This document shows positions 8,737 to 38,478 of a DNA stretch of 64,000 bases, in pieces. The notes below the pieces were generated by a model. That model was not told the origin of the DNA. It searched no databases and saw nothing but the letters and a program-made list of their open reading frames with translations. Source of the stretch: an uncultured Pseudodesulfovibrio sp. (GTDB lineage Bacteria; Desulfobacterota; Desulfovibrionia; Desulfovibrionales; Desulfovibrionaceae); the NCBI RefSeq assembly GCF_963664965.1, contig NZ_OY761823.1:3490001-3554000 (forward strand), read 5' to 3'. Position 1 is the first letter of the stretch, and each line of letters begins with the position of its first letter. Made by a program: the position numbers and the translations under genes.

Positions 8737-10335
8737 CTACCGAGGAACGGCATCCCCGATAACAGCGTCTTCGGGACGGGCCGCCTGCTTTTTTGCGACA
8801 CCATACAGTTCGAGCAGTTCGGCGAGTTTCACCTTGAGGTTGGTCGTGGTCCGCGCCACCTGTTCAAGGTTGATGAGGACCATGATGTCCACGCGGAAAA
8901 TAGCGCTTTTCCACATCCCCTGAAGCGTCTCGTGCAGCCCCGGCTCCAGACTGAGCATGGACAACGCCCCGTCAAACTGTTTGGCGGTCTTTGCCTTGAA
9001 CAGCAGCATCCCCTCGCGGGTGGTGTCATTGGCAAAAAGCTGTTTCTTGCGAATCTTGCTCATGTTCGGCAGCACGTCCACCTCGGCTTCAGGCACACGA
9101 CGGGCGCGTCCGCTCCGTACCTGAATCTTGCCGCCCTCACGGTGCCCTGTTTCCCGAAGAATGTGGATCGTATTATTCTCCAGCAAAAAGAAAAGCATCT
9201 TTTCCAGAGTCGGGACGCTGAAATTCCTGGCCAGTGGACGGATAGCTGATATCTGCTCCGGAATGAATTCCTCAAGCGCCTTGAAAAGGCTGTCACCTGT
9301 CATACCAATGGCAATGGCCGCTCCCACGCCCACGGCGATCAACTGGTCAAGCAGGAACTTGAATTCCTTCTGTTCCTTTTTCACCGTTTCCTGATCGCGA
9401 TCATCGCTTTTTTCCGGATTCTCTTTCCGGGCCTGAGCCTGAAGCACCTGCTCCTGATACCGGACTTCGAAGTCCTTTGCCACGGAATCGATGCAAATGA
9501 TGCGTGACGCCTGCACGAACTCATTAGCTGAAATCTTCTTTACCTGAGAAAGGGAAGAAAGCCCTTTCACGAGCATGTTCTGAACGAGTTTTGCCTGCTT
9601 GCGTCCCTCGAATTCAGTCCGGCTGAACACATAACTCTTCTGAATCCGTGTCTTCTCGATTTTCTGATTCGTGGGATTCAGCTTGGAAAGGATGTCGTCA
9701 AACAGGAAACGGATAACGAGAAAACTCCGTTCCTTGGAAATATCGAACTTCTCGCCGCTCAGGATTTCCTTGTGCGCCTCTTCCACCCGGCTGGCAACGA
9801 ACTGCTCCACAAAGGCTTTCCAGAACTGTTCGTTCAACTGATGCTGCTCGATAAGCTTGCTGTAGTCCTGCAAGGCATCCTGTCCGAAATAACGCAGGAC
9901 GATTTCCTCGAAATTGTCCGTAATGAGCGCCATGGCGTAGACAATACCCTGCACGCATTTGATGAGCATGGACTCGGTATTGATCAATCCGGCCTGCAAC
10001 TCGGCGGCCCGGGCCGTATCCTTCACCTTGACCGCTTTCTCGTAATGGGCAAGCAGGACGATGAAATTGGCAATACGCTTGTGAATGTACTCGTAACCGG
10101 GATGACCGACACGGCCACACAGGAGCTCCACGACACTCTTCTGCTGTGCCTTGAGCAGTGGGTATTCGTTGATGCTGCTATGGTTGATGCGGATAAACTC
10201 AAGAAGCAGTTCACGCTCCATGACCTCACGCAGGGCGGATCGCTCCTTGAGTGCGCGGAGTTTCTTCTGATAGGCGATGAGACGCTGTTCCTTGTCGAGA
10301 CGCGGCCCAGTGGCTTGAGGAGACGATTCAGTCAT
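8737..10335 (-). CDS. Large hypothetical cytoplasmic protein, 532 aa
   Basis: Not recognised. It is mostly helical and highly charged, with no signal peptide. A short hydrophobic stretch (LLDQLIAVGVGAAIAIGMTG, about 330-350) follows a Lys/Glu-rich coiled-coil-like segment (QEQVLQAQARKENPEKSDDRDQE). I saw no nucleotide-binding or metal motif. ATG 10335 is preferred; a TTG lies 4 codons upstream at 10347. Monocistronic, with a terminator after the stop. Clean codon structure over 1.6 kb makes it a real gene. Confidence 0.8.
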   Translation of the reverse strand: MTESSPQATGPRLDKEQRLIAYQKKLRALKERSALREVMERELLLEFIRINHSSINEYPLLKAQQKSVVELLCGRVGHPGYEYIHKRIANFIVLLAHYEKAVKVKDTARAAELQAGLINTESMLIKCVQGIVYAMALITDNFEEIVLRYFGQDALQDYSKLIEQHQLNEQFWKAFVEQFVASRVEEAHKEILSGEKFDISKERSFLVIRFLFDDILSKLNPTNQKIEKTRIQKSYVFSRTEFEGRKQAKLVQNMLVKGLSSLSQVKKISANEFVQASRIICIDSVAKDFEVRYQEQVLQAQARKENPEKSDDRDQETVKKEQKEFKFLLDQLIAVGVGAAIAIGMTGDSLFKALEEFIPEQISAIRPLARNFSVPTLEKMLFFLLENNTIHILRETGHREGGKIQVRSGRARRVPEAEVDVLPNMSKIRKKQLFANDTTREGMLLFKAKTAKQFDGALSMLSLEPGLHETLQGMWKSAIFRVDIMVLINLEQVARTTTNLKVKLAELLELYGVAKKQAARPEDAVIGDAVPR

Positions 10336-10530
10336 GAAGTACGGCAAGTCCTTGTATCCGTTAAAATATGGCGAACATTATGCCAACTTCCACATTTTTG
10401 CAAAAAAAATATCCGGCGCAACTGACCGGCTATCTCCCCTGCGCCCCCGTAATCACTGCATTCACCGCCGACAGGAAAACATGAAAAGGGGTCGCTTGAC
10501 CACCTCTCTGGAAAAAGCAATAAATACGGC

Positions 10531-10842
10531 GTGATCTTATGTACCGGCTGTGGCCGCAAAAATGACGATGAAGCACGTTTCTGCACAAACTGCGGGAAAA
10601 AACTTCAGTCGTCCTTCCAGTCAACAGGTCCTGTCTCGAACGGCCCCGCTCCTCTTGAGCGCTTTGAGAGCAAGCGGCTTCCGGCCGACGCATGGGCCTC
10701 GCTCAAACGCATGGCCGAAGCTTGGGTCTATGTCATCGTGCTTGCTGCCGTCGGCACAGGCTGCATGATTCAGGAAATATGGTGGCCCCTGTACCCCGCG
10801 GTGGGCCTGATCGGATTGATAGCCTGGTTCCGCCGAATCTGA
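10531..10842 (+). CDS. Zinc-ribbon membrane protein, 103 aa
   Basis: Starts with GTG at 10531. The N-terminus is a zinc ribbon (CTGCGRKNDDEARFCTNCGKK: two CxxC pairs 13 residues apart), then a linker rich in Ser/Pro, then two hydrophobic segments (WVYVIVLAAVGTGCMIQEI and LYPAVGLIGLIAWF) that would span the membrane as a hairpin. Zinc-ribbon-plus-membrane proteins of this size are common and mostly uncharacterised. Convergent with the next gene; a shared terminator lies between them. Confidence 0.72.
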   Translation: MILCTGCGRKNDDEARFCTNCGKKLQSSFQSTGPVSNGPAPLERFESKRLPADAWASLKRMAEAWVYVIVLAAVGTGCMIQEIWWPLYPAVGLIGLIAWFRRI

Positions 10843-25643: not shown

Positions 25644-26651
25644 ATGCTCAAAAAATGCATGATCCTGTGTGTCATGGCGTTTATGCTGGTCATGTCCGTC
25701 AATGCCTTTGCGGCCGACGGTGAAATGTCCGTTCTGGATACGATGTACACCGACAAGGACGGCGATCTGGTCGCCGACTTCGCGGAAGAAGGGAACTGCA
25801 AGGATCCCAGCACGCTCGTATTCACCTACACCCCGGTCGAAGACCCCGCTGTCTACAAGGATGCCTTTGCAGACTTTCAGGAATACCTGAGCAAGGCCAC
25901 CGGCAAGCGCGTCATCTACTACACCGTCCAGTCCAACGCCGCAGAAGTCGAGGCCATGCGCTCCGGCAAGCTGCACATCGCAGGTTTCTCCACCGGCCCC
26001 ACCGGCTTTGCCGTCAACCTCGCAGGTTACGTGCCCATCGCCGTCAAGGGCTACCCCGATGGATTCCAGGGCTACAACCTGATCGTGGTTGTCAAAAAAG
26101 ACAGCCCCATCCAGAAAATGGAAGACCTCAAGGGCAAGAAAGTGGCTCACACTTCCGCTTCCTCGAACTCCGGCAACCTGGCCCCCCGCGCCCTGTTCCC
26201 TCCGCTGGGCATCACCCCGGACAAGGACTACACCGTTGTCTACTCCGGCAAGCATGACCAGTCCATCCTCGGCGTAGCTCATGGTGACTACGACGCCGCT
26301 CCCGTGGCTTCCGACGTTTACGACCGCATGGTCGCCGCCGGTCGTGTGGACAAGGACGCCCTGCGTATCATCTACCGCAGCCCCAAGTTCCCCACTTCCT
26401 CCTTCGGCATCTCCAGCCAGCTCTGTCCGGAACTGGCCCAGAAGATCATCGGCGCTTTCAGAACCTACCGCTTCCCCGAAAGCATGCAGAAATCCTTCAA
26501 GGGTGCTGACCGCTTCTACCCCATCACCTACATGCAGGACTGGAAAGTCATCCGCGAAATCGCCGATGCCACCGGCACCAGCTACAATAAGGCAGGCCTG
26601 AAGGCCATGGCAGCCAAAGAAGCAGCCAAAAAAGCCAAGAAAAAGAAATAA
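25644..26651 (+). CDS. phnD: Phosphonate/phosphite ABC transporter, substrate-binding protein
   Basis: Periplasmic binding protein of 335 aa with a signal peptide ([25 protein letters not shown]). It belongs to the PhnD/PtxB family: [65 protein letters not shown], and [22 protein letters not shown]. The GAGGAG ribosome site is strong. The C-terminus is a Lys/Ala-rich tail. Substrate could be phosphonate, phosphite or phosphate-like; binding-site residues do not settle this. First gene of phnDCEE. Confidence 0.93.
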
Positions 26652-26673
26652 ACACCTCAAGGTTCTGAATACA

Positions 26674-27468
26674 GTGAACAATCAAAACAACAATGGGAAT
26701 GGGGGGGACACCCCCCGTTCCCTTATCGTTAAAGACGTCGTCAAGGAATATGTTGCAGGAAAGCCCGTTCTCAAAGGCATCTCCTTTGAAGTGACCGGCC
26801 GCAGCACTGTCGCCATCATCGGCCCGTCCGGTACTGGCAAGAGCACGCTGCTCCGCTGCATCAACCGGCTCATCGAACCGACCGACGGTGAAATCCACGT
26901 CGCAGGACAGGACATCACCAAGCTCTCCGGCAGCGAACTGCGCCACGCCCGCCACTACATCGGCATGGTCTTTCAGGAGTTCAACCTTGTCGAACGGCTG
27001 TCGGTCATTGAAAACGTCCTGTGCGGACGCCTCGGCTTCACCCCGGTGTGGCGTGCATGGCTGAGAAAATACCCGCAAGCGGACATCGACCGCGCTTACG
27101 AGCTGATCGAAAAGGTCGGTCTCGGCGATTTCGTCACCGCCCGTGCGGACAGCCTGTCCGGCGGCCAGCGCCAGCGCGTCGGCATCGCCCGCGCCGTGAT
27201 GCAGAATCCAGACATCATCATGGCTGACGAACCGACATCCTCGCTCGACCCCAAGACGTCCGTGGAAATCATGGAGCTGCTGAACGAATTCTCGCGCGTG
27301 CAGAACATCCCCCTGATCATCAACATTCACGACGTGAACCTTGCCAAGCGCTTTGCAGACCGCATCATCGGCATGAGCAAGGGCCACGTGGTATTCGACG
27401 GCAAGCCCGACGAACTTCAGGACAGTCACCTCAAGGAAATCTACGGTGGGGAGGACTGGCTGGCATGA
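26674..27468 (+). CDS. phnC: Phosphonate/phosphite ABC transporter, ATP-binding protein
   Basis: Cytoplasmic ATPase of the importer (264 aa), starting with GTG 26674. Walker A is GPSGTGKST, the Q-loop is [23 protein letters not shown] (PhnC-typical), the signature is LSGGQRQRV, Walker B is [12 protein letters not shown] and the switch His is in INIHDVNLA. The stop overlaps the start of the first permease (ATGA). Confidence 0.95.
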
Positions 27469-28256
27469 CCGCGCATTCCGCTGCAACGAGACGCCCCTTC
27501 AAACCCAGTTGGCTCGCCCGACTCGGATGGGCACTCGTCATCCTCTACGCCATCTACGCTGTCTCGGCCCTGGATATCTCCTGGTCGCGATTCGTGGACG
27601 GCCTCGGCAACGGCGCGAAATTCATCGGCGAACTGTTCCCGCCCAACTTCGACCGCTGGAAGCTCCTTGTGGAGAATCTTCTGGAAACCGTGGAAATCGC
27701 GGTCATCGCCTCGGCGTTCGGCATCTTCCTGTCCCTGCCCATCGGGCTGCTTGCGGCACGCAACCTGATGCCGCCGTGGGCCACATGGCCTGCGCGCACC
27801 ATCATCTGCATCTGCCGCTCCTTCCATCCGGTGATCTTCGCCATCCTGTTCGTCAAGGCAGTCGGCTTCGGTCCCATGGCAGGCATTCTGACTCTCGTAT
27901 TCGCATCCATCGGTTTTATCGGCAAACTCTTTGCCGAGGCCATCGAAGAGATATCCCTCAAGCCAGTGGAGGCCTGCAAGGCCGCCGGCGCACCGTTCAT
28001 GAGTGTGCTCATCTACGCTGTCATGCCGCAGGTCCTGAATCGGTTCATCGGCTTTGCCACCTACCAGTTCGACGCCAACATCCGTAACTCCACCATGGTA
28101 GGCATCGTCGGAGCGGGCGGTATCGGCGGCACACTGTTCGCCGCATTCCAGCGTTACGACTACGACTTCCTCTGCGCCATCCTGATCTCCATCATCGGAC
28201 TCATCATGATCAGTGAATTCCTCGCCGTAAGGATCAAGGGGGTATTCAATGACTAA
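27465..28256 (+). CDS. phnE: Phosphonate/phosphite ABC transporter, permease 1
   Basis: Inner-membrane permease of 263 aa with about six membrane helices. The cytoplasmic EAA-type loop is [33 protein letters not shown], close to the PhnE consensus, and the C-terminal [18 protein letters not shown] is the usual PhnE motif. It overlaps phnC by 4 nt and the second permease by 8 nt. Two permeases in tandem suggest a heterodimeric channel. Confidence 0.93.
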
Positions 28257-29043
28257 GCACTACGAATGGGAACGATTCACCCCGGCACAAAGAATGGCAC
28301 GCTTTGCCATCTACCTCGGCGCGGTCATCGCACTGGTCATGTCCATGCGGACCGTGGAAGTCATCCCGGAGTTCCTCTACGACGCTCCCGAGCAGATCGT
28401 GGACCTCTTCACCCGTATGTGGCCGCTGGATACCGCGCACTATGCCGTCGGTGTCCATGACGCACTCATCGAGACCCTGAACATCGCCTCCCTGGGTACC
28501 GTGCTCGCACTGTTCATGGCATTCCCGGTGGGACTCATGGCCGCAAGCAACATCACCAAAGTCCCGGCGCTCAACTGGTTCGCGAAGCTGATCCTCGTAT
28601 CCTCGCGTTCCGTCAACTCGCTCGTCTGGGCCATCCTGTTCGTGGCTGTTTTCGGCCCCGGCGCACTCGCCGGAACCGTTGCCATCGGGTTCCGTTCCAT
28701 CGGTTTCTGCGGCAAGCTGCTCGCCGAAGCGCTCGAGGAGTGCAATCCCGGCCCGATCGAAGCCCTCAAGGCAGCGGGCGCACCATGGCCCACCATCATC
28801 ATCAAGGGCTACTGGCCGCAAGTCGCACCGGCATTCTGGGGCATCACCCTGTTCCGCTGGGACATCAACGTCCGCGAATCCTCGGTCATCGGCCTTGTCG
28901 GCGCAGGCGGTATCGGCGTCGCTCTCGACACCGCGCTGAATCTGTTCAACTGGGATCAGGTCTCCCTCATCCTGCTGTGCATCTTCACCATCGTCATCGC
29001 CGCCGAAGTGTTCGTTACCAAAATCCGCGAACGCATCATCTAG
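28249..29043 (+). CDS. phnE: Phosphonate/phosphite ABC transporter, permease 2
   Basis: A second PhnE-like permease (264 aa), related to the first: AEALEECNPGPIEALKAAGAPWPTIIIKGYWPQ is the coupling loop and RESSVIGLVGAGGIGVALD the C-terminal motif. About six membrane helices. It closes the operon and is followed by a terminator. No C-P lyase or phosphonatase gene lies next to it, so the use of the imported compound is encoded elsewhere. Confidence 0.93.
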   Translation: MTKHYEWERFTPAQRMARFAIYLGAVIALVMSMRTVEVIPEFLYDAPEQIVDLFTRMWPLDTAHYAVGVHDALIETLNIASLGTVLALFMAFPVGLMAASNITKVPALNWFAKLILVSSRSVNSLVWAILFVAVFGPGALAGTVAIGFRSIGFCGKLLAEALEECNPGPIEALKAAGAPWPTIIIKGYWPQVAPAFWGITLFRWDINVRESSVIGLVGAGGIGVALDTALNLFNWDQVSLILLCIFTIVIAAEVFVTKIRERII

Positions 29044-29903: not shown

Positions 29904-29952
29904 AAAAAAAAGCCGGGATGTCAGTGTGCACATCGCACACCGGCATCCCGGC
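29904..29952 (-). terminator. Terminator of the selenoprotein gene
   Basis: On the minus strand, GCCGGGATG...CATCCCGGC with an inner GTGTGC/GCACAC is followed by eight T. It lies 47 nt after the stop at 29999, which supports reading the Fe-S gene through to that stop. Confidence 0.9.
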
Positions 29953-29998: not shown

Positions 29999-31297
29999 TT
30001 ACAAACCGACCTCTTTCAGATCATCGCCAAGATACTCACGCTCGTTCTCACCCAATATGCCGAGCGACAGGCATATCAACGTCCAAAGGTGCACCACCGG
30101 GAAGCCGGCTTCAAAATGCTCGCTCAAGTCATGAATCTGTGAATGGCAGTTATGACAGGGAGCTATGCAATAGTCCGCCCCGGTCTGGAGAATCTGATCA
30201 AGTTTGATGCGGCCATAATCCCTGCGCGCATCGCCGTAGCCGGATTGCAGGAATCCACCACCGCCGCCGCAGCAGTAGTTGTTGGATTTGTTCGGCCACA
30301 TGTCGATGAAGTTTTCCTCACCCACCACCGAACGAACCACGAATCGAAGGTCATCGGCCACGGGGTCCCCAAGTGATTTTCGTACCAACTGGCAGGGGTC
30401 CTGAACCGTGAACGTCACTCCGCGATCCTTGTTCCAGTCGGAATTGACCGGGAGCTTGCCCTCCCGAATCCAGCGGGCATACAGCCGGATGATGCTTTCC
30501 ATTTCAAAATTATGCTCGACATTGAACTTTTGCAGTCCGGCCCGGACTGCGTAGAATTCGTGTCCTCACTCCGTGTTGAGCCAGACCTTGCACCCCAGAT
30601 CCTCCACGGCCTTGGCCTTGTTGCGAACCACGGTTTCCCACGCCTCGTCATCGGCAAGGAACATGCAGTAGTTCTCGGCTGCCCAGCCCTTCGTGCTGTA
30701 GGTCCAATCTGCACCGACCAGATTCAGTATCTTCCACAGCGGGACCATCTCGTCCGGCTCGGTGACCGGCTCACGCGAATTCTGATTCAGAAAATAGTAC
30801 GCCCCCTTTCGGTCCACGGATGCCTGCAAGTTCTCCATTCCGGGCTGGGATTCACGCACCTCTTCAAGCACGTCTTCGACAACGAACTTGAAATCCTCGC
30901 TCGATGCACCCATGGCACTGTTACCCGGCGTATTGAGCGCCTGTTCACAGGAGCCGAGAATACCCTTGGGGCGTTCCTCACGCGGCCACGACTGGCGGCA
31001 GAGATACACGAGCTGGGGGATATCCACGTTCATGGGACAGGCATGCACGCAGCGGCGGCACATGGTACAGAGCCAGACCCACGGCGTTGACGTGATAGCT
31101 TCCTCCTGCCCCATGGCAGCGAGGCGGAGGAACTTTCGCGGGTTCATGTCTTCAAGCCCGGTGGCAGGACAACCGGATGAACACGCCCCGCAAGTGAGGC
31201 ACATGTTCAGGTTGCCGCCCTCAGGCAACAACTCCTGCACCTTTTCCATGAATTCCGATTTCTGCGGCTCAACGGCAAGTACGGCGGCTTCGCCCAT
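29999..31297 (-). CDS. HdrD-like Fe-S oxidoreductase, probable selenoprotein (Sec244)
   Basis: Heterodisulfide-reductase-type electron carrier or thiol:disulfide enzyme, 432 aa when TGA 30566-30568 is read as selenocysteine. Two [4Fe-4S] motifs lie at C33/36/39/43 and C77/80/83/87. The first CCG-like domain reads WLNTE-U-GHEFYAVR; the Cys paralogue at 35760 has MPDCGGGSYGCR in the same place. The second CCG domain has C302, CCGGGGG at 342-343, and C381xxC384. The frame is unchanged on both sides of TGA, and the downstream half keeps all family residues. A hairpin suited as SECIS starts 15 nt after the UGA. GGGAGG precedes the ATG. Partner and substrate unknown. No membrane helices are seen. 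Confidence 0.85.
30532..30550 (-). promoter_or_regulatory. Candidate bacterial SECIS hairpin
   Basis: On the minus strand, GCAGTCC-GGGCC-GGACTGC: a 7-bp perfect stem with a loop starting with G, beginning 15 nt after the UGA. Distance from UGA to loop (22 nt) fits bacterial SECIS elements, in which SelB binds a short hairpin inside the coding region. Confidence 0.65.
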
Positions 31298-31356
31298 GAC
31301 GACCTCCCGGTTGGAGTGTGGATGCCCATGCTTTGCGATGGAACATCATCAACCTA

Positions 31357-31372
31357 GCAAAAGGGAGACCAC
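31357..31372 (-). promoter_or_regulatory. Sigma-54-like promoter for the selenoprotein gene
   Basis: On the minus strand TGGTCTCCCTTTTGCT keeps the essential GG-N10-GC spacing of the -24/-12 promoter (TGG and TTGC present; CAC of TGGCAC is TCT). The predicted start is about 48 nt before the ATG at 31297. Confidence 0.6.
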
Positions 31373-31443
31373 CCGGAGCACGTCAAGCACACTCTAACAT
31401 TCCAGGTAGTTATCGAATCTCAGTCATGAAGAGGGACACTTCA

Positions 31444-31503
31444 TGTTGCACTCGAAACCGCAACGGCTGCAACATATGTTGCACGCTCCGCAACATTGCA
31501 ACA
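31444..31503. promoter_or_regulatory. Cluster of TGTTGCA/TGCAACA sites: probable enhancer
   Basis: A perfect 16-bp palindrome TGCAACATATGTTGCA lies at 31468-31483, with a half-site TGTTGCA at 31444-31450 and a GCAACATTGCAACA pair at 31490-31503. They lie about 75-135 nt upstream of the sigma-54-like promoter, the usual place for enhancer-binding-protein sites, right behind the activator gene. Confidence 0.7.
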
Positions 31504-31506
31504 AAT

Positions 31507-32829
31507 CTACAGGCCGAATTTCTTCCGCTGCCGCCAGAGCGTTGTGCGGTTGATTCCAAGGGCGCGGGCCGTGTCGGTCACATTCCAGTTGTGACGGTCA
31601 AGCTCCCGGCGCAGCCGCTCCCGTTCATCTTCACCGCTTTTCCCGGCAGCCCCCGGCACGCTCTCTCCGGAAAAATCCTTGAGTGACTGCGGAAGATCCA
31701 CAGCCCGTATCTGATCCGAAGTCGTCAGAATGACGCCACGTTCGATGACGTGGCGTAATTCGCGCACATTGCCGGGATAATCATAGTTCAGCAGCAGTTG
31801 CATGGCGCGTGGACCAGGTTCCCGAACATGTTTGATCTGTCTGGCGGCGAATTCTTCAGTGAAATGCTCGATAAGCAGGGGGATGTCGCACCGCCGCTCA
31901 CGCAGTGGGGGCAGGCTCAGCTCCACCACCCGCAGCCGGTAATACAGGTCAGATCGAAACGCCCCCCGTTCCACACGGTCAGCCAGATCGACATTGGTGG
32001 CGGCCATGAGCCGCACGTCCACGGACTCCGGCGAAGTCGCGCCGAGCGGAAGATACGCCTGCTCGTCCAGAACCTGCAACAGCTTGGCCTGCGACTCCAG
32101 CGGAATATCCCCGACCTCGTCGAGGAAAATGGTTCCGCCCTGCGCCTTGGCAAACAGGCCGGGTTTGTCCTGTCGGGCATCGGTAAAAGCTCCCCGGCGG
32201 TAGCCGAACAGCTCGGACTCGAAAAGATTGGCTGGAATGGCGGCACAGTTGACTTTGACATAGGGTCCGGCTGAACGCGGTCCGAGATTGTGAATGACCC
32301 GCGCCAGCAGATCCTTGCCGGTACCGGTCTCCCCCTGAAGGAGCACGGTGGCGTCAGTGGGGGCCACGACCTCCACCGTATCGAACAACTGCCGCATGAC
32401 GGGATCGCGCCCGACGATGTCGGAAAAACGGTACGACTGCCGTACGCATTTTTCCAGAGCCTGCCGCGCTGTCAGGTCAAGGATGGATTCCACACCACCG
32501 ACCACGTTGCCGTCCGCATCGGACAGCACTGCCGCCGTGATTTCCACGGGAATACGCCGATTGTTTCTGTTCAGGATTTCAAAACGGGCCTTGAGGACAC
32601 TCCGCCCCGACTGCATGGCCTGCCGGAGATGACATCGTTTGACGCACCGCTCGGCACCGAAGATGTCGCGGCATTTCCTGCCCACGGCCTCGTCTGCGCC
32701 ATACCCTGTGATACGCTCGGCCTCGCGGTTGAAAAAGGTGATGTTCCAATCCCTGTCAACGGCGAAAACACCGAGGGCGACGCTGTCCAGAATCAGTCTC
32801 AGTTCCGCGGAATCGACTTTCGCATCCAT
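31507..32829 (-). CDS. Sigma-54-dependent transcriptional activator (PAS-AAA+-Fis)
   Basis: Enhancer-binding protein of 440 aa. The N-terminal PAS domain (about 8-120) has three Cys in CRDIFGAERCVKRCHL (C53, C62, C66), as in a redox or metal sensor. The AAA+ domain has Walker A GETGTGKD, the sigma-54 contact loop GAFTDA (ELFGYRRGAFTDARQ), Walker B GGTIFLDEVGD and the R-finger region. The C-terminal Fis-type helix-turn-helix is NVTDTARALGINRTTLWRQRKKFG. It lacks a receiver domain, so signals come via PAS. Located directly upstream of the palindromes and the selenoprotein gene, its likely target. Confidence 0.93.
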   Translation of the reverse strand: MDAKVDSAELRLILDSVALGVFAVDRDWNITFFNREAERITGYGADEAVGRKCRDIFGAERCVKRCHLRQAMQSGRSVLKARFEILNRNNRRIPVEITAAVLSDADGNVVGGVESILDLTARQALEKCVRQSYRFSDIVGRDPVMRQLFDTVEVVAPTDATVLLQGETGTGKDLLARVIHNLGPRSAGPYVKVNCAAIPANLFESELFGYRRGAFTDARQDKPGLFAKAQGGTIFLDEVGDIPLESQAKLLQVLDEQAYLPLGATSPESVDVRLMAATNVDLADRVERGAFRSDLYYRLRVVELSLPPLRERRCDIPLLIEHFTEEFAARQIKHVREPGPRAMQLLLNYDYPGNVRELRHVIERGVILTTSDQIRAVDLPQSLKDFSGESVPGAAGKSGEDERERLRRELDRHNWNVTDTARALGINRTTLWRQRKKFGL

Positions 32830-35759: not shown

Positions 35760-37073
35760 ATGGATACAACGGCACTCAACTGCACTGATTTCCAATACGA
35801 CGATTTTCTCGAACAATACGACTTCTCCAGTTGCCTCGTCTGTGGCGCATGCTCCAACGGCTGCCCCAACACCGGGGCCCCCGAATCCGCAGGCTGGGAT
35901 ACGCGCAAAGTCATGCGCTTGCTCGCCAACAATCTGGTGGACGACGTGGTCAAGTCGAACTTTCCATGGCTGTGTACCGGCTGTGGCCGCTGCGCCAGCA
36001 CCTGCCCCGGCGGCATCGACATCCCTTCCATCATGGGCCACATAAAGAGCCTGCGCCCGCGCGAAGATGTCCCCGGCTCCCTGCATACCGGCATGCAGAA
36101 CAACATCGAGACCGGCAATAACCTCGCCATCAGCAGGGACGACTACCTTGAAGGCATGGCCGAGCTGGGCGAAGAACTTGCCGAGGAATGTCCCGGATTT
36201 TACGTCCCCGTGGACAAGCACGGTGCCGACGTTCTCTTTTTCCCCAACTCCAAGGAAGTCTACGGCGACTTCGAGGACCAGTTCTGGTGGTGGAAGATAT
36301 TCTACGCCGCCAAGGAAAACTGGACCGTCCCGTCCGAAGGCTGGGAAGCCGTGGACTGGGCACTCTTCACCGGCAATGCCGACGGCAACAAGAAGCTTGC
36401 CGGACGCAAGATCGATTACGTCAGGGAACACAACATCAAGCGCATGATCATGCCCGACTGCGGCGGCGGTTCCTACGGCTGCCGGAAAGGCATGGAAAAG
36501 CTCATTTCCGTGGACCCGGACAACGAAGTCGGATTCATCTATCTCTACGATTATCTCATGGAACTCATCAAAGAGGGCCGCATCAAACTCGACAAGTCCG
36601 TTCATGCCGGAAAGAAGTTCACCTTCCACGATTCCTGCAAGCACGGCCGCGAACTCCAGCGCAACTTCGGCAAAGGCTACTTTGACGAACCCCGCTGGAT
36701 TCTTCAGCAGTGCGTCGATGAATTCGTCGAACTGACCCCCAATCGTGAGAAAAACTACTGCTGCGGCGCAGGCGGCGGCATGTGGCCCGCCCCGTTCGAG
36801 GACCAGTCCGCATGGCACGCCCGGTACAAGCAGCAGCAGATCAAGGACAGCGGCGCGGACGTCGTCGTTGTTGGCTGTTCCAACTGCCGCGACCAGATCA
36901 TGAAACGCATCCCCAAGTACTTCGAAGGCTGCAACTACGAAGTCAAATACATCTGGGAAGTGGTCGCCGATGCGCTCGTCATCGAGCCGTGGGAACAGGA
37001 CATGATCGAAAAAGCCGAAGCCGCCGCACAAACGCAGTGGGACAAGTTCGGCGTTGAGATTACCGAGTATTAG
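35760..37073 (+). CDS. HdrD-like Fe-S protein (Cys paralogue of the selenoprotein)
   Basis: Cytoplasmic Fe-S oxidoreductase of 437 aa with the same order of parts as the selenoprotein at 30-31.3 kb. The [4Fe-4S] sites are C25/28/31/35 and C72/75/78/82. A first CCG-like region is IMPDCGGGSYGCRKG, with C234 where the relative has Sec. The second CCG domain is HDSCKHGREL, NYCCGAGGG and VGCSNCRDQI. Such HdrD/GlpC-type proteins pass electrons between ferredoxin-like donors and thiol-disulfide or quinone partners. The partner is not encoded nearby. A start at ATG 35760 gives full alignment of the N-terminal Cys set. Confidence 0.9.
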   Translation: MDTTALNCTDFQYDDFLEQYDFSSCLVCGACSNGCPNTGAPESAGWDTRKVMRLLANNLVDDVVKSNFPWLCTGCGRCASTCPGGIDIPSIMGHIKSLRPREDVPGSLHTGMQNNIETGNNLAISRDDYLEGMAELGEELAEECPGFYVPVDKHGADVLFFPNSKEVYGDFEDQFWWWKIFYAAKENWTVPSEGWEAVDWALFTGNADGNKKLAGRKIDYVREHNIKRMIMPDCGGGSYGCRKGMEKLISVDPDNEVGFIYLYDYLMELIKEGRIKLDKSVHAGKKFTFHDSCKHGRELQRNFGKGYFDEPRWILQQCVDEFVELTPNREKNYCCGAGGGMWPAPFEDQSAWHARYKQQQIKDSGADVVVVGCSNCRDQIMKRIPKYFEGCNYEVKYIWEVVADALVIEPWEQDMIEKAEAAAQTQWDKFGVEITEY

Positions 37074-37338: not shown

Positions 37339-38478
37339 CTACAACTTCTTCAGCTCCAGTTCCAGAGCGGCGAGGTAATCCGAGAGCATGTCGGGCGTAA
37401 TGTCGCCCATGTGCCCGATGCGGATAATGACGCGGCGTCCTTCGGCTTCGAGGGCAGCGTTGAGTTTTCCGTAGCCCGGGTCCATGAGATAGCCTTTGGC
37501 GCGGAGGTTTTCCTTCACCTGCTGCTTGAGCTGCGCCACGGTCACGCCTTGCGGACAGACCACGGTGGACAGGGTCGGGGAACGATAGCCTTCGGCAGCA
37601 AACATGTCGAAACCGTCGAGCCCTTCTACCCATGCTTCGACCATGCCGCGCATGTCGGTGTGGCGGGCAAAACGGTTCTCGATGCCTTCCTCGTTCACGA
37701 TACGGTCGAGCTGATACCACATCTGGTTGATGAGCGTACCGTTGGGCGTGGTCAGAGTCTGGTTCTTGCGCGCTTTTTCGAGCTGCCTGTTGATGTCGCA
37801 GGCATGGCCCTTGTTGGTCACGGTGGCGGCCTTTTCCTCGGCTTCCTTGGAGACGAAGGCGATACCGAACCCGGCGGACAGGGCCAGAGATTTCTGTGTG
37901 GCAGTGACGTACATGGCCGCGCCGGAGTTGGCGAGGTCGATATCCGCACCGCCGAAGATGGACACGCCGTCAACGAGCGGCATGGCGTCGTATTTGCGGA
38001 TGAGCGCGCACACGGCTTTCATGTCGTTCATCACGCCGGTGGATGTCTCGTTATGGGTGAAGGACACCACTTCCGGCTTGAGTTCGGCGAGCTTCTTTTC
38101 GAGCACGTCCATGTCGATGGGCTGGCCGTAATCGAACTTGAGGTTCTCGGCCTTTTTGCCGTTGGCGACCGCGATGTTGTAGTAATGATCGCCAAACGCA
38201 CCGACAGAAACATTGAGCAGGGTCTCGCCGTCCGCCACGAGGGAGCGGATGGAGGCTTCCATGGCGGAGGAACCGGACCCGAGGAACAGCACAGGCTCGT
38301 ACATGTCGCCCGCCCCGGCCAGCTTCCTGAGATTTTCACGAATGGGAACCAAACGCAGGTCGTTTTCCGCATCCCGATGCCCGAATTCAGGCAGCAACGC
38401 GGCTTCCTTGACGTCGTCACGGATATAGGTCGGACCGGTAATAAAGAGCTTCAAAGGCGCAAAATTCGGTTTGCTCAT
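37339..38478 (-). CDS. Class V aminotransferase (alanine-glyoxylate/serine-pyruvate type)
   Basis: PLP-dependent enzyme of 379 aa. It begins LKLFITGPTYIRDDVKEA and has GSGSSAMEASIRSLV for the cofactor phosphate, SFTHNETSTGVMNDMKAV, the PLP-stacking/Asp region LVDGVSIFGGADID, and the Schiff-base Lys in VTATQKSLALSAGFGIAFVS. C-terminal GYGKLNAALEAEGRRVIIRIGHMGDIT fits alanine-glyoxylate or phosphonate-type (AEP) aminotransferases; 2-aminoethylphosphonate:pyruvate activity is possible but not shown. It is convergent with the Fe-S gene. Confidence 0.9.
   Translation of the reverse strand: MSKPNFAPLKLFITGPTYIRDDVKEAALLPEFGHRDAENDLRLVPIRENLRKLAGAGDMYEPVLFLGSGSSAMEASIRSLVADGETLLNVSVGAFGDHYYNIAVANGKKAENLKFDYGQPIDMDVLEKKLAELKPEVVSFTHNETSTGVMNDMKAVCALIRKYDAMPLVDGVSIFGGADIDLANSGAAMYVTATQKSLALSAGFGIAFVSKEAEEKAATVTNKGHACDINRQLEKARKNQTLTTPNGTLINQMWYQLDRIVNEEGIENRFARHTDMRGMVEAWVEGLDGFDMFAAEGYRSPTLSTVVCPQGVTVAQLKQQVKENLRAKGYLMDPGYGKLNAALEAEGRRVIIRIGHMGDITPDMLSDYLAALELELKKL

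Follow-up and report, generated by a model that had tools for sequence, protein, structure and literature searches.

A selenocysteine-containing HdrD-like iron–sulfur protein from an uncultured Pseudodesulfovibrio and a possible substrate site beside its noncubane cluster

The stretch of DNA analysed here, called the window, comprises 64,000 nucleotides of contig NZ_OY761823.1 from an uncultured Pseudodesulfovibrio sp. A gene on its minus strand (29999–31297) begins with ATG at 31297, ends with TAA at 30001–29999, and contains a single in-frame TGA at 30566–30568. A first-pass annotation, made from the letters alone, had proposed that the frame continues through this TGA without a shift and that the codon is read as selenocysteine (Sec), and the frame is indeed continuous on both sides of the codon. 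The full-length product is an HdrD-like Fe-S protein of 432 residues, the homologues of which are open over the same span except for the TGA. The codon corresponds to residue 244, which lies in the context KVWLNTE-U-GHEFYAVR and forms the motif TE-U-GH. It is almost certain that a full-length selenoprotein is made from this gene by UGA recoding. A Shine–Dalgarno-like ribosome-binding site, GGGAGG, was identified by eye ahead of the ATG (31303–31308, minus strand), and a Rho-independent terminator, also recognized in the first-pass annotation, is positioned past the far stop (29904–29952, minus strand). The terminator consists of a 9-bp stem and a subsequent run of eight T, and its folding reaches a z-score of −5.5 relative to shuffled sequences; the output of a simple terminator scan does not contain the element at 29952–29904. 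A search of positions 30000–31500 against Rfam, with E-values up to 10, gave no match.

The TGA is followed by a hairpin resembling a bacterial selenocysteine insertion sequence (SECIS) element (30532–30550, minus strand), which starts 15 nt past the codon, as had been suggested. The hairpin, GCAGTCC-GGGCC-GGACTGC, has a 7-bp stem and a 5-nt loop, GGGCC. Bacterial SECIS elements carry a G among the first two bases of the loop, and so does the hairpin in the window. The 49-nt stretch containing it folds with an energy of −15.9 kcal/mol (z −3.1), which is better than 199 of 200 shuffles. In an alignment of 58 Sec-form sequences, 56 of them distinct, the seven stem pairs are formed in 95.2% of cells, and pairing drops to 36% or less in every slid register. 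Two-sided changes occur at five stem pairs, which was equalled by 6 of 500 shuffles, and the covariation score of the stem was reached by none of 500. Sec forms retain on average 6.56 of the seven pairs (five or fewer in 5 of 165 sequences, a set that includes repeats), and the second loop base is G in all 165. The mean is 3.17 pairs in 18 cysteine (Cys) forms, 11 from the main clade and seven paralogues or DsrK-like proteins; this contrast is uncorrected for kinship and is based on sequences aligned over about 300 residues or more. The Cys forms L047 and L046 retain five and six pairs, respectively, which would fit an origin from Sec forms. Three Cys homologues that were folded have z-scores of +1.05, +0.50, and −1.02.

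The host genome encodes the machinery on which the proposal of recoding depended: SelA, SelB (392 bits), SelD, and a tRNA-Sec (80.7 bits). The selD gene (G000:C1:1034944–1035873) itself contains an in-frame TGA. A search of 98 related genomes gave 65 matches with at least 63% identity, 63 of which cover the site after the removal of G097:C61 and G080:C240, which do not reach it. The codon is TGA in 60 of the 63, so its presence is not due to chance, and TGT, TGC, and TGC in the remaining three. The TGA was re-read at the site in 57 of the 60, and the other three, which are partial genes (G029, G073, and G088), were taken from the per-match TGA tally; an additional TAA in the homologue from G045 was considered its natural C-terminal stop. 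Of 247 genomes sampled evenly from the phylum, 29 contain a total of 37 matches with E ≤ 1e-100, 29 with TGA and eight with TGC. The alternation of UGA with Cys codons, which had been proposed as a check, is thus present in both sets. All of the best 80 loci from named genomes have TGA, although these 80 are the top-ranking of a list of at least 568 relatives, a selection that favours the close, TGA-bearing forms. Among these 80, the gene at L172 is divided between two frames, and L146 has a second TGA in a stretch extending further upstream than its match. The hosts of the 80 loci are, according to their titles, sulfate-reducer genera or unspecified Delta- or Proteobacteria. The related and named genome sets overlap (for example, L115 with G008:C90 and L157 with G037:C18), and their tallies are therefore not additive. 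The presence of the machinery, the alternation of TGA with TGC and TGT, and the covariation of the hairpin, together with its loss from most Cys forms, strongly support Sec at the TGA.

One relative, G042, provides a natural control. Its homologue has TGC, and the genome has no match to SelA and none to SelB above the cut-off; its best tRNA-Sec candidate scores 47.9 bits (family cut-off 47), compared with 69.8 to 86.3 bits in ten other genomes. SelA and a clear tRNA-Sec are present in the other ten Cys-bearing genomes tested, and the Cys form therefore does not require loss of the machinery. In a tree of 92 sequences calculated with the site masked, the Cys forms are dispersed among the Sec forms of the main clade. 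The whole tree includes 12 changes between Sec and Cys labels, seven of which are forced by starred branches, and the main clade of 80 sequences contains about nine separate Cys places, as counted by eye. The tree was built by a quick method and has long branches and an arbitrary root. The nesting of the Cys forms points to repeated reversion of Sec to Cys, a direction that would depend on the placement of the root. Both forms occur within single genomes in the phylum sample (G229, G133, G177, G269, and G167) and in the relatives G064 and G047, the latter with tandem copies. Tandem Cys and Sec copies at L046:8007–9272 and 9346–10617 constitute a natural Sec/Cys pair. The UGH motif is also found in two distant clades with 27–34% identity.

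The gene is a further member of the known selenoprotein family "Fe-S oxidoreductase (GlpC)" with the motif UGH. The first-pass annotation had implied that the protein was new; the family was predicted in 2006 by Zhang and others, who listed GlpC for D. vulgaris (PMC1794560), and it is entered as "UGH, PTHR43551" in a 2026 review, which describes the functions of such families as largely uncharacterized (PMC13188914). A table in PMC5029168 gives 47 family members in 31 organisms. The window gene has a UGA that gives U-G-H, Cys homologues at the site, and a host with SelA, SelB, SelD, and tRNA-Sec; as described for the family in PMC1794560 and PMC13188914, the UGA at U-G-H is accompanied by a bacterial SECIS element and the hosts are deltaproteobacterial. 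In some genomes the family is reported next to hdrA-frhD-frhG-frhA, whereas the window copy lies outside an hdrA operon. The 2006 table records five GlpC selenoproteins with two Cys-to-Sec and no Sec-to-Cys events (PMC1794560); in contrast, the scattered Cys forms observed here suggest several Sec-to-Cys reversions. The nickname GlpC is misleading. True GlpC, subunit C of anaerobic glycerol-3-phosphate dehydrogenase, was rejected, as the TIGR03379 model scores 30.7 bits against a cut-off of 279.9. The best NCBIfam matches are HmcF, TmcB, and DsrK, with scores of 158.6, 146.9, and 111.7 bits, which are below the respective cut-offs of 750, 735, and 400. HdrD4 of Desulfobacterium autotrophicum HRM2 is listed among Sec-containing proteins (PMC2702500); both it and the window protein are soluble and combine HdrC- and HdrB-like parts, a likeness drawn from its description with orthology assumed. 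Five Sec genes, including hdrA and mvhD, are named in the available text on D. multivorans (PMC5109826), which lists no UGH protein there. We found no published role for the Sec of the UGH family among titles and opening abstracts, with subscription journals outside the scope of the search.

The window protein can be divided into an N-terminal double [4Fe-4S] ferredoxin domain and two CCG domains. The ferredoxin domain (residues 30–91; 31025–31210, minus strand) was identified by Fer4_8 and other Pfam models. The first CCG domain (30518–30811, minus strand; limits approximate, from alignments) is degenerate, and residue 244 is the sole ligand position kept in it, followed by His246. The second CCG domain (PF02754, residues 297–388; 30134–30409, minus strand) contains the full complement of five Cys for a noncubane [4Fe-4S] site, Cys302, Cys342, Cys343, Cys381, and Cys384, all of which are encoded downstream of the TGA, as had been noted before. 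HdrB can be overlaid by both CCG domains, and an hhalign comparison between HdrB and the family covered the second domain alone. HdrB of the HdrABC–MvhAGD complex (PDB: 5odc) has two noncubane clusters, whereas in the window protein the first of the two Cys sets expected of a catalytic HdrB or HdrD subunit is reduced to Sec244, and the second is complete.

The position of Sec244 can be described by comparison with EtfD of Mycobacterium smegmatis (PDB: 9ojn; PMC13083937), which has the same layout of a ferredoxin domain and two CCG domains and also membrane helices. In EtfD, Cys503, Cys538, Cys581, and Cys584 hold a linear [3Fe-4S] cluster, and Cys637, Cys672, Cys673, Cys709, and Cys712 together with His583 hold a noncubane [4Fe-4S] cluster (PMC13083937). 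The family profile pairs U-G-H-E (residues 244–247) with C-P-H-C (581–584) in a local alignment of moderate accuracy. Sec244 thus takes the position of Cys581, while Ala166, Trp198, and Glu247 occupy the positions of the other three ligands of the first cluster. The noncubane set is complete relative to EtfD, and His246, two residues after Sec244, is the equivalent of the His that caps the EtfD cluster beside the CxxC position of its first CCG domain. His246 is conserved in 18 of 19 sequences of alignment A3 and in 40 of 40 of alignment A4, and Cys or Sec is present at the site in all 19 sequences of A3. The first-pass annotation had placed Sec in a Sec-ligated first noncubane cluster, which is unlikely judging from the aligned ligands; incorporation of Sec into a complete first cluster was rejected, as three of the four ligand positions of EtfD cluster D1 lack Cys. 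It is more probable that Sec functions next to the second noncubane site, which is intact. The sequence ECGH, with Cys instead of Sec, is present at the site in the host DsrK and in two other HdrD-like proteins, and Sec has therefore replaced a Cys that occurs more widely in the class. The placement of Sec beside the capping His and in the DsrK Cys slot raises a testable question: whether, in DsrK and related HdrD-like proteins, it is the ECGH residue that reacts with the disulfide in partnership with the noncubane cluster. If this were true, it would bear on the coupling of thiol/disulfide chemistry to energy conservation in sulfate reducers. Cys211 was rejected as a general partner of Sec; it is near-invariant in the main clade, and both distant UGH clades have other residues at this position.

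Homologues of HdrA recur near the Sec gene. Among loci from the relatives, 27 of 52 have one within 3.5 kb of it, or 24 of 43 if the loci are restricted to those with full flanks; the corresponding figures for the named loci are 38 of 80 and 27 of 50. No formal chance test was applied to these counts. The HdrC query was read with its TGA as Cys and probably overruns the natural stop, which leads to overlaps between HdrC and HdrB and leaves the HdrA counts unaffected. Several arrangements recur across loci. The order at L088 is MvhD, an FrhB/FdhB-like protein, HdrA with a receiver domain, HdrC, HdrB, a universal stress protein (Usp), and the Sec gene; at L063 it is the Sec gene, hdrA, mvhD, mvhG, and mvhA, with further in-frame TGAs. 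At L063:9337–15222, hdrA, mvhD, and mvhA each contain an in-frame TGA in addition to that of the UGH gene. The host has an operon of the L088 type at about 3.433–3.441 Mb that does not include the Sec gene, which lies about 80 kb away.

We propose that the product is a soluble HdrD-like protein, an HdrC–HdrB fusion, in which two N-terminal [4Fe-4S] clusters would exchange electrons with the noncubane [4Fe-4S] cluster of the second CCG domain, as the conservation of ligands suggests. The first CCG domain would have lost its own cluster and retained Sec244 as the one remaining ligand position. HdrB cleaves the heterodisulfide using two noncubane clusters (PMC13083937). In the window protein, Sec244 and the single noncubane cluster may form a joint substrate site for the reduction of a disulfide or persulfide, with one half bound to the open Fe and the other held as a selenenylsulfide on Sec, which may take this sulfur because it occupies a former ligand position of the first cluster. 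Sec would thereby stand in for the second cluster missing relative to HdrB. The electrons could come from a flavin-bifurcating HdrA module, as suggested by the repeated association of the gene with hdrA and mvhD, joined in some genomes by the mvhGA hydrogenase genes. Conservation, the recoding signals, the machinery, the fold, and the linkage are computational results, and the cluster content, the cluster order, and the reactive site formed by Sec244 and the noncubane cluster are inferred. We consider the chances of this explanation as a whole, an HdrA-fed substrate site of Sec244 and the noncubane cluster, to be about even. The more specific version, in which the selenolate replaces one of the HdrB clusters and splits a disulfide, persulfide, or DsrC-type trisulfide with electrons from HdrA, and in which the gene stands apart from hdrA and is switched by sigma-54, is more tentative and falls somewhat short of even. 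The function of the UGH family probably lies in disulfide-linked electron transfer. To the earlier predictions of the family, our analysis adds the structural placement of Sec, the repeated reversions, and the Cys control without SelA.

Several observations weigh against recoding or against the proposed site. Five genomes with the TGA gene, four from the main clade (G029, G048, G056, and G092) and one from a distant UGH clade (G097), have no SelB above the cut-off; their assemblies consist of 140–520 contigs, and incompleteness is the likely, if not certain, cause. Some single Sec hairpins are not clearly set apart from their shuffles (L054, z −1.5; L049, z −1.2). About half of the loci, including that in the window, have no HdrA within 3.5 kb. 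One Cys form, L217, reads CAH. The Cys-bearing paralogue encoded at 35760–37073 (plus strand) has 28% identity and, as had been claimed, Cys in the column aligned with Sec244, and its motif DCGGGSYGC begins with DCGGG and has no His. Furthermore, the capping His of EtfD shields the cluster and renders it non-catalytic (PMC13083937), which would favour pure electron transfer.

Sec could instead bind the noncubane [4Fe-4S] cluster directly, replacing His246 or switching with it, which would result in a Se-ligated cluster of tuned potential and no free selenolate. The EtfD residue at this position does ligate a cluster, and Sec is two residues ahead of the His that caps the other one; however, the equivalent EtfD Cys serves the first cluster, not the second, and the conserved His246 can already occupy the sixth ligand position, so that we regard direct ligation as unlikely. 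We rate no higher the view that the protein is purely an electron wire of the EtfD or DgcB type, with a His-capped cluster and a Sec that protects against over-oxidation or speeds repair. It draws on the alignment of His246 with the His residue that renders cluster D2 of EtfD non-catalytic, but the retention of Cys or Sec throughout A3 and in DsrK-type proteins suggests chemistry, and many Desulfobacterota bear the cost of Sec. A selenium switch, in which low selenium would yield a 243-residue ferredoxin-like product alone and selenium the whole protein, is very improbable: although a complete double ferredoxin domain is encoded upstream of the TGA, a product stopping within the first CCG domain would be unlikely to fold correctly, and all 11 main-clade Cys forms continue past the site. 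That the TGA is a true stop caused by sequencing error or gene decay can be dismissed despite the formally interrupted frame, because dozens of genomes have homologues with the same TGA, in which the domains after the codon are intact and the hairpin covaries.

In the host, the gene has apparently left the hdrA operon and may be under sigma-54 control. A gene for a protein with PAS and sigma-54 activator domains is located directly upstream (31507–32829, minus strand), separated by a gap of 209 bp. Sigma-54 promoters have a −24/−12 consensus, and a loose pattern derived from it, with no chance estimate, matches TGGTCTCCCTTTTGC at −74 (31357–31371, minus strand). The relatives L060, L085, and L086 share the activator and have a similar element at −70 to −81. 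An inverted repeat, TGTTGC-N7-GCAACA (31477–31495, minus strand), is a possible activator site found by pattern search; it has one match in the window, and with one mismatch allowed at least one match occurs in 25 of 100 shuffles. Among nine loci compared, the full repeat is present in the window, L060, and L086. L085 has half-sites without a full repeat, L164 has a single half-site, and L062, L127, L181, and L188 have neither. A term search of the main text on the D. vulgaris sigma-54 regulome (PMC4641369) gave no hit for selenium, the repeat half-sites, Fe-S proteins, or hdr.

The neighbourhoods include further features. A close homologue of the paralogue at 35760 lies less than 3 kb from the Sec gene in 4 of 52 loci from the relatives. 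The HdrA encoded at L088:11841–15272 (minus strand) contains a receiver domain (PF00072, E 5.3e-14, residues 191–297) between its ferredoxin and flavin parts; the domain scan was made in L088, and the host counterpart is at G000:C1:3435954–3439379. The two-domain universal stress protein between hdrB and the Sec gene (L088:9404–10303, minus strand) has its own copy at L113:5508–6407. In the window, the gene adjoining the Cys paralogue (37339–38478) encodes a class V aminotransferase with PhnW/AepZ as its best, below-cut-off NCBIfam match. The opposite strand downstream of the Sec gene (25644–29043) carries genes for a binding protein, an ATPase, and two permeases, which resemble those of a phosphonate-type ABC transporter.
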